From a virus, in IMG/VR virus record IMGVR_UViG_3300031787_000508, positions 1 to 32,851 of that record: a DNA stretch of 32,851 bases; one strand, written 5' to 3'. This document shows positions 3,423 through 32,851 of this stretch, piece after piece. Each line of letters begins with the position of its first letter. Position 1 is the first letter of the stretch. The notes beneath the pieces are model-generated. The model searched no databases. It saw only the letters and a program-made list of their open reading frames with translations, and was not told the DNA's origin. The position numbers and the translations under genes are program-made.

Positions 3423-3724
3423 TGAAAACTCCCGCTTGGCAACGCTCCGAAGGTAAAAATCCTAAAGGAGGGTTGAACTCCAAGGGAAGATCATCTTATA
3501 ATGCGGAAACTGGTGGTAATTTAAAAGCACCAGTAAAGTCGGGGGATAACCCTCGCAGAGCAAGTTTCTTGGCTCGTATGGCTGGCAACGATGGCCCTGA
3601 GTACAAGGATGGTAAACCGACAAGACTGCTTCTTTCGCTTAAAGCATGGGGTGCATCCTCAAAGGCTGACGCAAAGGCAAAGGCTAAGTCTATTTCTGAA
3701 CGAAATAAGGCAAAAGCGAAATGA
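3422..3724 (+). CDS. Small Lys-rich protein 4 (DUF6321-like)
   Basis: 100 residues. The order PAWQRSEGKNPKGGLN, NLKAPVKSGDNPRRASFLAR and KPTRLLLSLKAWGASSKADA is conserved, as far as I recall, in a family of unknown function (DUF6321-like) found in phage structural regions. ATG 3422 overlaps the previous stop as TGATG; a GTG three bases upstream is less likely. The C-terminal third is Ala/Lys-rich and resembles histone-tail composition. Role unknown. Confidence 0.7.
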   Translation: MKTPAWQRSEGKNPKGGLNSKGRSSYNAETGGNLKAPVKSGDNPRRASFLARMAGNDGPEYKDGKPTRLLLSLKAWGASSKADAKAKAKSISERNKAKAK

Positions 3725-18263: not shown

Positions 18264-18638
18264 ATGGAAATGAAACAACAACATTATGCAATTCTCAAGA
18301 GGTTGCAACATGGCGCATCATCCCTCAAACGCTTCACAGACAAAGATGGTGAAGTCGGCAACCAAGGCTTCCATTATCTGCGTTATCTGAACGATCTTCA
18401 GAACTTTGGCTATGCGCTAGAGATAGGTGACGTTTGGCATATAACGGGGTTTGGAGTGGCTAAGTTGGCAGAGCAAACGCCAAGGGTATCCAAGGATAGA
18501 GTGGCGGCTGGAACTACCACAGAAACCTATGATGGGGCTGACTTGAAGCAGAGTGGCATCAGGGAAGGTGCATTTGATTTCTTGAAATACCCATCAAAGT
18601 TTGGGGACAATTTGGTTTATCCAAGAGTTTCTATATAA
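18264..18638 (+). CDS. Winged-helix-like phage protein, replication unit
   Basis: 124 residues. The first 70 (QQHYAILKRLQHGASSLKRF, GFHYLRYLNDLQNFGYALEI) have a helix-helix-wing pattern like a winged helix, consistent with DNA binding or transcription control. The C-terminal part has Y-D-G-A-D-L and FLKYPSKFGDNLVYPR, an ending shared by many phage proteins of unknown function. AAGGAG precedes ATG 18264. A TATAAT box overlaps its last codons and drives the RNA element downstream. Confidence 0.65.
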   Translation: MEMKQQHYAILKRLQHGASSLKRFTDKDGEVGNQGFHYLRYLNDLQNFGYALEIGDVWHITGFGVAKLAEQTPRVSKDRVAAGTTTETYDGADLKQSGIREGAFDFLKYPSKFGDNLVYPRVSI

Positions 18639-18639
18639 T
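18612..18639 (+). promoter_or_regulatory. Promoter for structured leader RNA
   Basis: A perfect TATAAT (18634-18639) overlaps the stop codon of the preceding gene, with TTGGTT (18612-18617) as a weak -35 sixteen bases upstream. Transcription would start near 18646, immediately before the structured RNA at 18650-18722. The exact -10 and the close match of start site to the RNA fold support real use. Confidence 0.5.
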
Positions 18640-18645
18640 TATTTG

Positions 18646-18736
18646 AGACACGGCTAGATGTGGATTGATCCCCGCATCGAAAAGAGAACAGACCCCTCCT
18701 GCCGAGGTTTCTTTCAAGGGTCGAATCATGGGTCTG
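18646..18736 (+). ncRNA. Structured, pseudoknot-capable RNA (C4 antisense RNA-like)
   Basis: Three elements can be drawn by hand. Hairpin 1: GATGTGG (18657-18663) with CCGCATC (18672-18678), seven pairs, loop ATTGATCC. Hairpin 2: GACCC (18691-18695) with GGGTC (18718-18722), and an inner CCT/AGG pair with loop carrying GCCG (18701-18704). That GCCG is complementary to CGGC at 18651-18654, which would make a pseudoknot. CAGACCC (18689-18695) is also perfectly complementary to GGGTCTG (18730-18736) at the start of the next gene. Layout recalls phage C4 antisense RNA, which blocks translation of a downstream gene; from memory, not verified. Confidence 0.55.
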
Positions 18737-19489
18737 AAAAAAATGCACTACTACCAGTTCAATATTGGGGACTATGCTTCCCACACACGGCACTTAAATG
18801 TCATAGAAGATTGCGCCTATCGCAGGTTGCTTGACTTCTACTATCTCCACGAAAAGCCGATAAAGCAACACGACATTGCTCGGCAGATCAACATGAGAGA
18901 GCATGAACAAGAGGTCTTATCTGTTCTAAATGAGTTCTTTTTGTCATCAGATGATGGGTTTGTCAGTCCACGGGCAAACAAGGAAATTGAGCATTTTCAC
19001 TCGAAGATTACTCAAGCATCAAAGGCGGGTAAAGCGTCTGCTGAACGGAGGTTCAACGGGCGTTCAACGGACGTTCAACCAACCAATAACCATAAACCAA
19101 TAACCAATAACCAAGAACCAATTATTCAAGAAGGTAAACCTTCTTTGTCTGGAACTACGTTCCCGCCTTGTCCGCATACCGAGTTATTAAAACTATGGGG
19201 AAAGAATTTGCCACACCTTACTCAACCTAGAACTTGGGAAGGCAACAGACAAGCCAACATGAGGCAGAGGTGGATACAGGCGGGCAAACCATCTGCTTAC
19301 TCGCTTGAGGGCTACAAAACCACAGAGGATGGGCTTAAATGGTGGGATTCATTCTTTGGATACATCGCCAACGACACATCATTGGCAAAAGGCTTTGAAG
19401 CCAAAGGCAGAACTTGGTTGCCAGACCTTGAGTGGGTGGTTAACGCCACTAATTTTCAGAAAATCATTGATGGAAAGTATACAAAATGA
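18728..19489 (+). CDS. DUF1376 (YdaU-type) replication protein
   Basis: 253 residues. HYYQFNIGDYASHTRHLN and EDCAYRRLLDFYYLHEKPI at the N-terminus are the DUF1376 hallmark, a winged-helix domain of phage replication-initiation proteins. A low-complexity Asn/Pro linker follows (about 117-135) coded by short tandem repeats, then a C-terminal domain (QPRTWEGNRQANMRQRW, KWWDSFFGYIANDTSLAKG) seen in phage primosome and replication proteins. Like lambda O, it may bind repeats within its own gene. ATG 18728 lies after AAGGG, which the leader RNA can sequester; an upstream TTG at 18665 lies inside that RNA and is rejected. Confidence 0.78.
   Translation: MGLKKMHYYQFNIGDYASHTRHLNVIEDCAYRRLLDFYYLHEKPIKQHDIARQINMREHEQEVLSVLNEFFLSSDDGFVSPRANKEIEHFHSKITQASKAGKASAERRFNGRSTDVQPTNNHKPITNNQEPIIQEGKPSLSGTTFPPCPHTELLKLWGKNLPHLTQPRTWEGNRQANMRQRWIQAGKPSAYSLEGYKTTEDGLKWWDSFFGYIANDTSLAKGFEAKGRTWLPDLEWVVNATNFQKIIDGKYTK
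19051..19122. repeat. Two families of short tandem repeats, candidate origin iterons
   Basis: Family one: GTTCAACGG repeated three times with an 11-bp period (19051, 19062, 19073, the last ending CC). Family two: AACCAAT repeated six times with an exact 7-bp period (19081 to 19122, with variants AACCATA and AACCAAG). Both lie inside the DUF1376 gene, in the linker. Lambda and relatives keep origin iterons inside gene O, so this is a candidate replication origin. Seen in sequence; origin role inferred. Confidence 0.6.
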
Positions 19490-26965: not shown

Positions 26966-29017
26966 ATGGCAACAGATAAACAAGTCGGTATGGAACAAAA
27001 TGAGTTTGACGAACCAACTGAGTCCGATAAAGAACTTGTTGGATTTGTTGTAGACCATTGCAATCGGTGGCGTGACTACCGAGATGTTAACTTCCTCCCT
27101 GATTGGCTAGAGTACGAACGCATCTTCCGTGGTCAATGGGCTTCTGAAGACAAAACCCGTGAGTCTGAGCGTTCACGAATCGTTACCCCTGCTACCCAAC
27201 AAGCCGTAGAGACTCGTCATGCTGAGATCATGGAAGCAATCTTTGGTCAAGGCGATTTCTTTGATATTGAAGACAACATACAAGATGTAGGCGGTAATCC
27301 CATAGATGTTGAGATAATCAAGGCTCAACTGATGGAAGACTTCAAGAAAGACAAAATCCGCAAAGCAATCGACCAAATTGAGTTGATGGCTGAAATCTAC
27401 GGCACAGGCATTGGCGAAGTTGTGGTTATGACTGAGAAGGAGTATGTTCCTTCCACTCAACCAATCCCAGGCCAAGTTGGACAAGCGGCTATTGGAGTTT
27501 TAGAGAGAGACAGAATTGCTGTAAAGATTTCTCCTGTAAATCCAAAGAACTTCTTGTTTGACCCAAATGGCACAAGCGTAAATGACTGTATGGGCGTGGC
27601 TATCGAGAAATATGTCTCTATCCACAAGATTGTCCAAGGCATAGAGGCTGGTATCTACCGAAAAGTAGACATCACCACTACTGGTGAAGATACAGACCTA
27701 GAGCCTACCCAAGAAGTTAGTCAATATCAGGACGAGAAGGTTCTTCTCCTGACCTACTACGGCTTAGTTCCACGGGAATACCTAGAGAATCTAGAAGAAA
27801 ATAAAGAGATAGTAGATTTATTTCCAGAGAATTCTGCGGCAGATGACTATACAGACATGGTAGAAGCCATTGTTGTGATTGCCAATGATGGGCAACTCTT
27901 AAAGGCTGAAGCCAATCCCTACATGATGAAGGATCGTCCCGTCTTGACCTATCAAGATGACACAGTTCCTAATCGCTTGTTGGGCAGAGGAACAGTAGAA
28001 AAAGCGTTCAATATGCAAAAGGCTATTGACGCACAGACTCGTAGCCACTTGGATTCTTTGGCATTGACTACTAGCCCCATGATTGCTATGGATGCTACTC
28101 GTTTACCACGAGGAATGAAGTTTGAAGTAAAGCCTGGCAAGGCAATCCTTACCAATGGCGCACCTTCTGAGATTCTCTACCCCTTCAAGTTCGGTCAAAC
28201 TGACCCCAACAACTTGGCTACGGCACGAGACTTTGAGCGTATGTTGTTACAAGCAACGGGAACTCTTGATTCTCAGGGAATGATTAGCAATGTGGCTAGA
28301 GATGGTGGTCAAGGCGGTATGTCTATGGCTGTTGCTTCTATCATCAAGAAGTACAAACGCACTTTGGTGAACTTCCAAGAGGATTTCCTAATCCCGTTTA
28401 TCAAGAAGGCGGCTTTCCGCTTCATGCAGTTTGATCCAGAGCGTTATCCTTCTGTGGACATGAACTTTGTTCCTACGGCTACGCTTGGCATTATTGCTAG
28501 AGAGTACGAGCAACAGCAGTTTATTGGCTTGTTGCAGACACTTGGCCCCAATACTCCTGTTTTGCCTGTGATCTTGAAAGGCATTTTGGCTAATTCAAGC
28601 CTATCTAACAGGATGGAATTGATTGCGATGTTGGACAAAATGGGTCAACCTGATCCACAAGCACAACAAATGCAACAAATGCAACAGCAATTGGCTCTGC
28701 AAGCGGCACAAGCACAGATTGCTGTCAACACTACTCAAGCAGAACAGAATCGGGCAGAGGCTACTAAGTTGTCTGTTGAGGCTCAGTTGATGCCACAAGA
28801 AGTGCAAGCCAAGATGAGTGCGTCTTTGACTAAGAATCTACCCAATGATGCTGATGCCAACCAAAGAGAGTTCGATAAGCGAGTCAAGATTGCTGATTTG
28901 ATGCTTAAAGAGGCTGACATTAAGAATAAGAGCAAGATTGTTGAGTTACAGATGGCTGATAAGCGTGGGCAGGTAGAGAACGACTTTCTAGACAGGCTTT
29001 CTAAGGAACTTTCCTAA
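26966..29017 (+). CDS. Portal protein
   Basis: 683 residues from ATG 26966, with GGGG seven bases ahead; an upstream TTG is disfavoured. The core GRGTVEKAFNMQKAIDAQTR, SLALTTSPMIAMDATRLPRG and later FMQFDPERYPS fit P22-like portals of short-tailed phages. The C-terminal part (about 555-640) is Gln/Ala-rich coil (QAQQMQQMQQQLALQAAQAQ), reminiscent of the P22 portal barrel. It forms the twelve-fold DNA gate at one capsid vertex and binds terminase and adaptor. The next gene begins at the stop (TAATG). Confidence 0.88.
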   Translation: MATDKQVGMEQNEFDEPTESDKELVGFVVDHCNRWRDYRDVNFLPDWLEYERIFRGQWASEDKTRESERSRIVTPATQQAVETRHAEIMEAIFGQGDFFDIEDNIQDVGGNPIDVEIIKAQLMEDFKKDKIRKAIDQIELMAEIYGTGIGEVVVMTEKEYVPSTQPIPGQVGQAAIGVLERDRIAVKISPVNPKNFLFDPNGTSVNDCMGVAIEKYVSIHKIVQGIEAGIYRKVDITTTGEDTDLEPTQEVSQYQDEKVLLLTYYGLVPREYLENLEENKEIVDLFPENSAADDYTDMVEAIVVIANDGQLLKAEANPYMMKDRPVLTYQDDTVPNRLLGRGTVEKAFNMQKAIDAQTRSHLDSLALTTSPMIAMDATRLPRGMKFEVKPGKAILTNGAPSEILYPFKFGQTDPNNLATARDFERMLLQATGTLDSQGMISNVARDGGQGGMSMAVASIIKKYKRTLVNFQEDFLIPFIKKAAFRFMQFDPERYPSVDMNFVPTATLGIIAREYEQQQFIGLLQTLGPNTPVLPVILKGILANSSLSNRMELIAMLDKMGQPDPQAQQMQQMQQQLALQAAQAQIAVNTTQAEQNRAEATKLSVEAQLMPQEVQAKMSASLTKNLPNDADANQREFDKRVKIADLMLKEADIKNKSKIVELQMADKRGQVENDFLDRLSKELS

Positions 29018-32513: not shown

Positions 32514-32727
32514 ATTTGTCTGCGTAAGTGGACATCTCACCGAGAAACTTACTGATTATGAGACAGATGAAGTTCGGTGTTCAAGTTGCGGTGTGACAGC
32601 CAACCGCATCATAAGTGCTCCAAGCGTTAATTTGGAAGGGTGGTCTGGTCATTTTCCGTCTTCATGGATGAAATTTGAGAAGAAGCACACAGACAAATTA
32701 AAGCAAGAGCAAAAAGAGAACTCCTAA
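32497..32727 (+). CDS. FmdB-like zinc-ribbon protein
   Basis: 76 residues. RIYEFVCVSGHLTEKLTDYE and C-S-S-C-G (about 28-32) with NRIISAPSVNLEGW match small FmdB-type zinc-ribbon regulators, though the first Cys pair is altered (C-V-S-G-H). These occur in many phage late operons between fibre and scaffold genes. The TAA is the first codon of the terminal repeat. Confidence 0.7.
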   Translation: MKRIYEFVCVSGHLTEKLTDYETDEVRCSSCGVTANRIISAPSVNLEGWSGHFPSSWMKFEKKHTDKLKQEQKENS

Positions 32728-32851
32728 GCAGAAATGCCGAGTTTAATGTCCTAGAACCGATAACGGCAGGAAAAAGGAAGAATATGTTGATTGATAAAGA
32801 AGACGAGTCGCTAAGTGAGTTAGACATAGTTGAGGAACAAAATCAACTACC
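32725..32851. repeat. Direct terminal repeat, right copy
   Basis: Identical to bases 1-127. Here the stop codon of the zinc-ribbon gene is followed by the scaffold leader and the start of the scaffold gene, showing that the two window ends are the same place on a circle. Confidence 0.95.
32784..32851 (+). CDS. Scaffold gene, partial repeat copy
   Basis: First 68 bases of the scaffold gene, cut by the window edge; the full copy lies at 60-818. It is a duplicate caused by the overlap, not a second gene. Confidence 0.9.
   Translation, partial: MLIDKEDESLSELDIVEEQNQL

Follow-up and report, generated by a model that had tools for sequence, protein, structure and literature searches.

The int-alpA RNA family (Rfam RF02996), reportedly described by Weinberg et al. 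in 2017, is named without a function in the literature we found; a mechanism may have been proposed elsewhere, and the family is absent from a 2025 review of phage small RNAs. Sequence variation in the C4 RNA gives heteroimmunity (PMC5320573). The CI antisense RNA of phage P4 pairs with sites in the leader, terminates transcription and keeps the replication genes off (PMC4825925). Here we compare these systems with an RNA element that lies directly before a phage replication gene.

The window is the whole 32,851-nucleotide stretch of IMG/VR virus record IMGVR_UViG_3300031787_000508. A direct repeat of 127 bp occupies both of its ends (1-127 = 32725-32851), so the genome is probably complete and circularly closing, at about 32.7 kb. 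A rightward operon is opposed by a leftward recombination operon (Sak, YqaJ); the DUF1376 gene is second in the rightward operon, and the RNA element stands between it and the first ORF (18264-18638). That ORF encodes 124 aa without a known family and lies directly 5′ of the predicted promoter, a place taken in some relatives by a repressor-like or regulator gene. Family searches of this apparently complete genome recognized no integrase, HTH_3 repressor, serine recombinase or ParA, and lysogenic immunity can therefore not be taken as the established role of the element in this phage. For the DUF1376 protein, the start codon at 18743 (MHYYQFN..., as in relatives) is more likely than the in-frame upstream ATG at 18728. 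The features of the locus are as follows.

18612-18617, plus strand: weak −35-like hexamer TTGGTT, matching at 3 of 6 positions, 16 nt 5′ of the −10 box; seen in the sequence and not called by a consensus scan.
18634-18639, plus strand: −10 box TATAAT, from the sequence; predicted RNA start at 18645/18646.
18645-18713, plus strand: int-alpA-like structured RNA of the long hairpin-1 subclass, from the RF02996 match at 18647-18720, covariance model R1 and the fold.
18645-18654, plus strand: 5′ strand of the closing stem, GAGAC (18645-18649) and CGGC (18651-18654); pair probability 0.99-1.0, and covariation.
18657-18678, plus strand: hairpin 1, 7 bp (18657-18663/18672-18678, one G-U), loop 18664-18671 with the palindrome GATC at 18667-18670; covariation.
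18678-18684, plus strand: conserved linker CGAAAAG in alignments A3 and A4; it lies within the search pattern, and its invariance is partly by construction.
18684-18698, plus strand: hairpin 2, 3 bp GAG/CTC (18684-18686/18696-18698), with the hypervariable loop AACAGACCC at 18687-18695; covariation.
18701-18711, plus strand: 3′ strand of the closing stem, GCCG (18701-18704), two bases and GTTTC (18707-18711); pair probabilities and covariation.
18718-18722, plus strand: predicted target site 1, GGGTC, 5 bp to loop 2 by complementarity; loop hairpin to site region −9.5 kcal/mol.
18730-18736, plus strand: predicted target site 2, GGGTCTG, 7 bp to loop 2 by complementarity, −13.2 kcal/mol; 6 bases 5′ of the start codon at 18743.
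18743-19489, plus strand: putatively regulated gene for a DUF1376 replication initiation or primosomal protein, 248 aa from the conserved ATG; PF07120 (E = 5e-19) and PHROG primosomal or replication O-like families.

The initial annotation had placed a promoter and a compact RNA before the replication gene, and this arrangement is real, with TATAAT at 18634-18639, an unusually stable fold and covariation in 71 relatives. Of 102 distinct viral relatives, 50% have a −10-like hexamer equally far from the RNA. The stretch 18645-18713 has a minimum energy of −21.1 kcal/mol (z = −2.54), equalled by 2 of 200 shuffled sequences. Longer or shorter stretches, folded with loose bounds, are not unusual in energy, which indicates that the exact boundaries matter. 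Pair probabilities lie at 0.98-1.0 in the closing stem and in hairpin 1, and near 0.8 in hairpin 2; when the full leader is folded from the correct 5′ end, they leave the RNA module intact and loop 2 unpaired. The 7-bp hairpin read in the initial annotation is present, with its one G-U pair, as is the second hairpin, which is short at 3 bp (loop 18687-18695). The CGGC and GCCG segments, then taken for a loop pairing and hence a pseudoknot, form, by their pair probabilities, the stem that closes the junction, with GAGAC/GTTTC as its extension. The T-rich tract directly 3′ of this stem is a terminator-like end, represented in the window by only a weak T tract with six T in eight bases; at least five T in eight bases follow the closing stem in 84% of viral loci, compared with 12% in a control stretch.

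At gathering thresholds, an Rfam search of the window gave no match. With permissive settings int-alpA was the sole meaningful match, aligned end to end with 26.8 bits (E = 8e-4 for 241 bases), a score that does not reach the curated gathering threshold of 35.8 bits; the short-class relatives L007, L052, L010 and L016 exceed this cut-off. Model R1, a covariance model made from the short hairpin-1 class alone with the window left out, aligns the window end to end with 33.7 bits (E = 4.6e-7) and recovers 40 of the 40 long-class loci searched, at E up to 1.1e-5. Since a model built without the window finds both the window and the long class, the RNA belongs to a long hairpin-1 subclass of int-alpA or to a sister group. 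All parts of the int-alpA architecture are found in it, namely the closing stem, CUAG, hairpin 1, CGAAAAG, hairpin 2, CUG and the T-rich tail. Its context differs from the position between integrase and alpA, which is typical of the family and not defining, in that the window is without an integrase. A second R1 match in the window, at 27650-27681 (12.3 bits, E = 0.37), is attributable to chance.

The C4 class, to which the RNA had originally been likened, is not its family: RF01695 gave no match with the E limit raised to 10, and a search of this kind does detect P1 C4 (68.8 bits) and P4 CI (74.9 bits). C4, a processed RNA of about 77 nt that acts in trans, has two segments, a′ and b′, for distinct sites, and in the window one loop is complementary to both. 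In phage P4, the region upstream of CI (L194:2116-2206, minus strand) matches isrK with 60.8 bits and c4-a1b1 with 44.1 bits, the latter just below the cut-off.

Relatives were collected with a pattern of conserved pieces, giving at least 120 viral loci, and with a stricter pattern, giving 72 loci in bacterial genomes, where a few chance-like ones were dropped. The patterns fix CTAG, CGAAAAG and CCTG, whose conservation is thus partly by construction, and leave the loops, the sites and the stems outside the pattern free. These related sequences are not independent; counting distinct loops and pairing close relatives lessen the effect of kinship and do not remove it. Named phages with the closest DUF1376 proteins, as far as we inspected them (Vibrio, Thalassomonas, Moraxella, Acinetobacter, Methylophilaceae and others), lack the RNA at that place.

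In the alignment of 71 distinct long-class sequences (A3), 96.3% of cells are paired, and both sides are changed in 148 cells versus 42.7 in shuffles; slid registers score far lower. Compensatory changes in the hairpin 1 stem and in the CGGC/GCCG pair had been named in the initial annotation as the support to look for, and they occur in hairpin 1, where five pairs have changes on both sides, and in the closing stem. The latter is partly fixed in the first pattern; outside the fixed bases, the outer stem gives a permutation z of −19. It also covaries in the second scan, where it is free except for one pair and the next position shows G-C, A-T, T-A and C-G. Pair 41-58 of the hairpin 2 stem is AU in 28 sequences, CG in 28, GC in 12 and UA in 3, and is never broken. 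The loop of hairpin 1 has a palindromic tetramer in 83 of 100 distinct hairpins, compared with 45 when shuffled, and across alignments A3 and A4 the palindrome switches as a unit (AGCT, GATC, CATG, AATT, GGCC, CGCG, TGCA). This suggests possible loop-loop kissing, though the palindrome is not in all hairpins.

A result that goes beyond the initial annotation is the complementarity of loop 2 to two sites downstream of the RNA. This loop is hypervariable, with 111 distinct loops at 181 loci. For 110 distinct loops, the mean longest match at site 1 is 5.65 in the loop's own leader versus 3.93 in swapped leaders (z = 20), and at site 2 it is 4.55 versus 3.20 (z = 22). Another permutation test of the loop against the two sites gave z values of 17 and 17. 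The second scan shares the family core and overlaps the first set, so only loci new to the first set were counted; its 47 loops gave z values of 14 and 17. In the typical geometry, site 1 begins 12 nt past GCCG, site 2 begins 13 nt past the start of site 1, and a median of about 3 nt separates the end of site 2 from the start codon used. Some loci have a bulged second site (AAGcGG, GGcGAG), as seen by eye.

Loop and sites switch together. Among 41 pairs of loci with downstream proteins at least 70% identical and with differing loops, the loop matched its own sites better than the swapped ones in 39 and equally in 2, with none reversed. In L002 and L098, for example, the proteins are 90% identical, the loops differ, and both sites have changed to match. 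The same layout is seen in loci above the RF02996 cut-off, including L193 (Pseudomonas), L122 (Nitrobacter), L142 (Planctomycetota) and L140 (Xenophilus) as well as L312, L313 and L315; in bacterial-genome loci across Proteobacteria and Planctomycetota; and in an E. coli prophage and two named phages, Edwardsiella phage GF-2 and Enterobacter phage Tyrion, the latter with a member at the Rfam threshold.

Judged by family matches, the viral relatives of the first pattern are mostly placed before replication genes. Among those listed, the next gene is DUF1376 by Pfam in 47 of 93 and has a primosomal PHROG match in 58 of 93. The use with a replication gene, which had been proposed as new, is not unique to this phage. 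Other relatives lie before HNH/GIY-YIG genes or moron genes, or behind integrases. The upstream ORF is an integrase in 21 of 51 bacterial-genome loci, a context that fits the int-alpA name. A tyrosine integrase was found in 6 of 50 viral records searched, many of which are fragments, and serine recombinase and ParA in none of the 18 viral records examined further.

One genome, L042, contains two family RNAs, at 1693-1759 on the minus strand and at 3611-3670 on the plus strand, and the second has a loop and sites of its own. This second element lies, by eye, 5′ of an HNH-like gene, and its closing stem is changed to ATGGC/GCCAT. Read from these sequences, the two RNAs are apparently orthogonal controllers within one genome. 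In L311-L315 (E. coli prophages and phages Tyrion, GF-2 and Vibrio 1.198.A), the RNA and its sites precede small moron-like genes, for example DUF551, that adjoin lysis, terminase, head or tail genes.

We propose that the RNA at 18645-18713 is a divergent member or close sister of int-alpA and, with good probability, an antisense RNA that acts in the manner of C4 and CI to shut off its own downstream replication gene. RNA polymerase would initiate at the TATAAT promoter, and most transcripts would end at the T-rich tract past the closing stem, freeing an RNA of about 70 nt with its phage-specific loop exposed. Transcripts that read through would form the DUF1376 leader, with two tandem sites that match loop 2. 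As the small RNA accumulates, it would pair with one or both of the leader sites, blocking translation, causing early termination, or both. After an early burst, replication would thus no longer be initiated, and a further phage with an identical loop would likewise be silenced. The promoter, the closed fold and the T-rich tract together lead us to infer the release of a small RNA acting on readthrough leaders. A point against antisense pairing is that each predicted site spans only 5-7 bp and that many are rich in G, as Shine-Dalgarno sequences are.

The complementarity of loop and sites, taken alone, would fit equally well with a pseudoknot switch acting in cis, in which loop 2 pairs alternately with site 1 and site 2 of the same transcript and opens or closes the start of the replication gene, with no need for a free small RNA. 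In its favor, the RNA, its sites and the gene follow one another on a single strand; the distances from the closing stem to the sites, 12 and about 25 nt, are small enough for such pairing; and a fold of 18646-18740 sets loop 2 against site 2. However, the module stays folded with its loop unpaired in the full leader with the correct 5′ end, and the rapid co-switching of a hypervariable loop and its sites resembles immunity specificity rather than what is expected of a private switch; for these reasons we favor this explanation less. The element's own promoter, closed stem and T tract also point to a releasable RNA, and its known analogues, C4 and CI, are trans-acting (PMC5320573, PMC4825925). 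Overall, we regard a cis switch as unlikely.

Two direct repeats about 13 bp apart before a replication gene could also be read as DNA iterons bound by the replication initiator, with the complementarity to the RNA incidental. This reading is hardly credible, because a third, inverted copy is placed exactly in the RNA loop at each locus, the same layout precedes non-replication genes (the HNH gene of L042, the DUF551 genes) and follows integrases, and the stems of the RNA covary. The strictly conserved junction core (CTAG, CGAAAAG, CTG) beside variable stems resembles an aptamer, a conservation that comes partly from the search patterns, and a riboswitch-like leader might bind a metabolite or phage protein there and control readthrough. 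An aptamer does not explain a variable loop that matches two sites (z about 20), and the downstream genes are very diverse; we consider a riboswitch very improbable. Returning to the antisense reading, what had been suggested as C4-like control of the downstream gene very probably stands, judging from the sequences, as antisense pairing, and falls as to both the C4 family and the pseudoknot.

These observations suggest a concrete mechanism for an RNA family so far described as no more than a structural motif. On balance, we lean towards viewing int-alpA as a very widespread third class of self-targeting antisense RNA in phages, found in Proteobacteria and beyond, in which one hypervariable loop and two tandem sites before a start codon form a fast-switching specificity code. 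This code would govern replication genes, homing endonucleases and moron genes, also where a phage has no recognizable lysogeny genes, and the palindromes in the hairpin-1 loops may allow kissing between RNA and leader ahead of pairing. The loop and its two sites suggest a readable code that would predict which phages silence each other's replication, and it could be read from sequence alone in environmental phages.

In comparison with the described systems, the window RNA shares its architecture with int-alpA RF02996, whose bona fide members also have the complementarity of one loop to two sites; it differs in its longer hairpin 1 (7 bp with an 8-nt loop) and in its replication gene context without an integrase nearby. 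It resembles the C4 RNA of P1/P7 in its compact, closed structure with two hairpins ahead of a phage gene, and in P1, too, short sites (annotated a2 and b2) lie downstream of the RNA and before icd, the last adjoining the start. In contrast to the one loop and two tandem sites of the window, the C4 segments a′ and b′ serve two different sites, C4 also has upstream sites a1/b1, and the C4 target is icd/ant where the putative target here is a replication gene. The CI RNA of P4 is similar as an antisense RNA directed against phage replication genes through leader sites; however, its sites lie on both sides of CI, it belongs to another family, and it resides on a satellite for which a lysogenic state is known.
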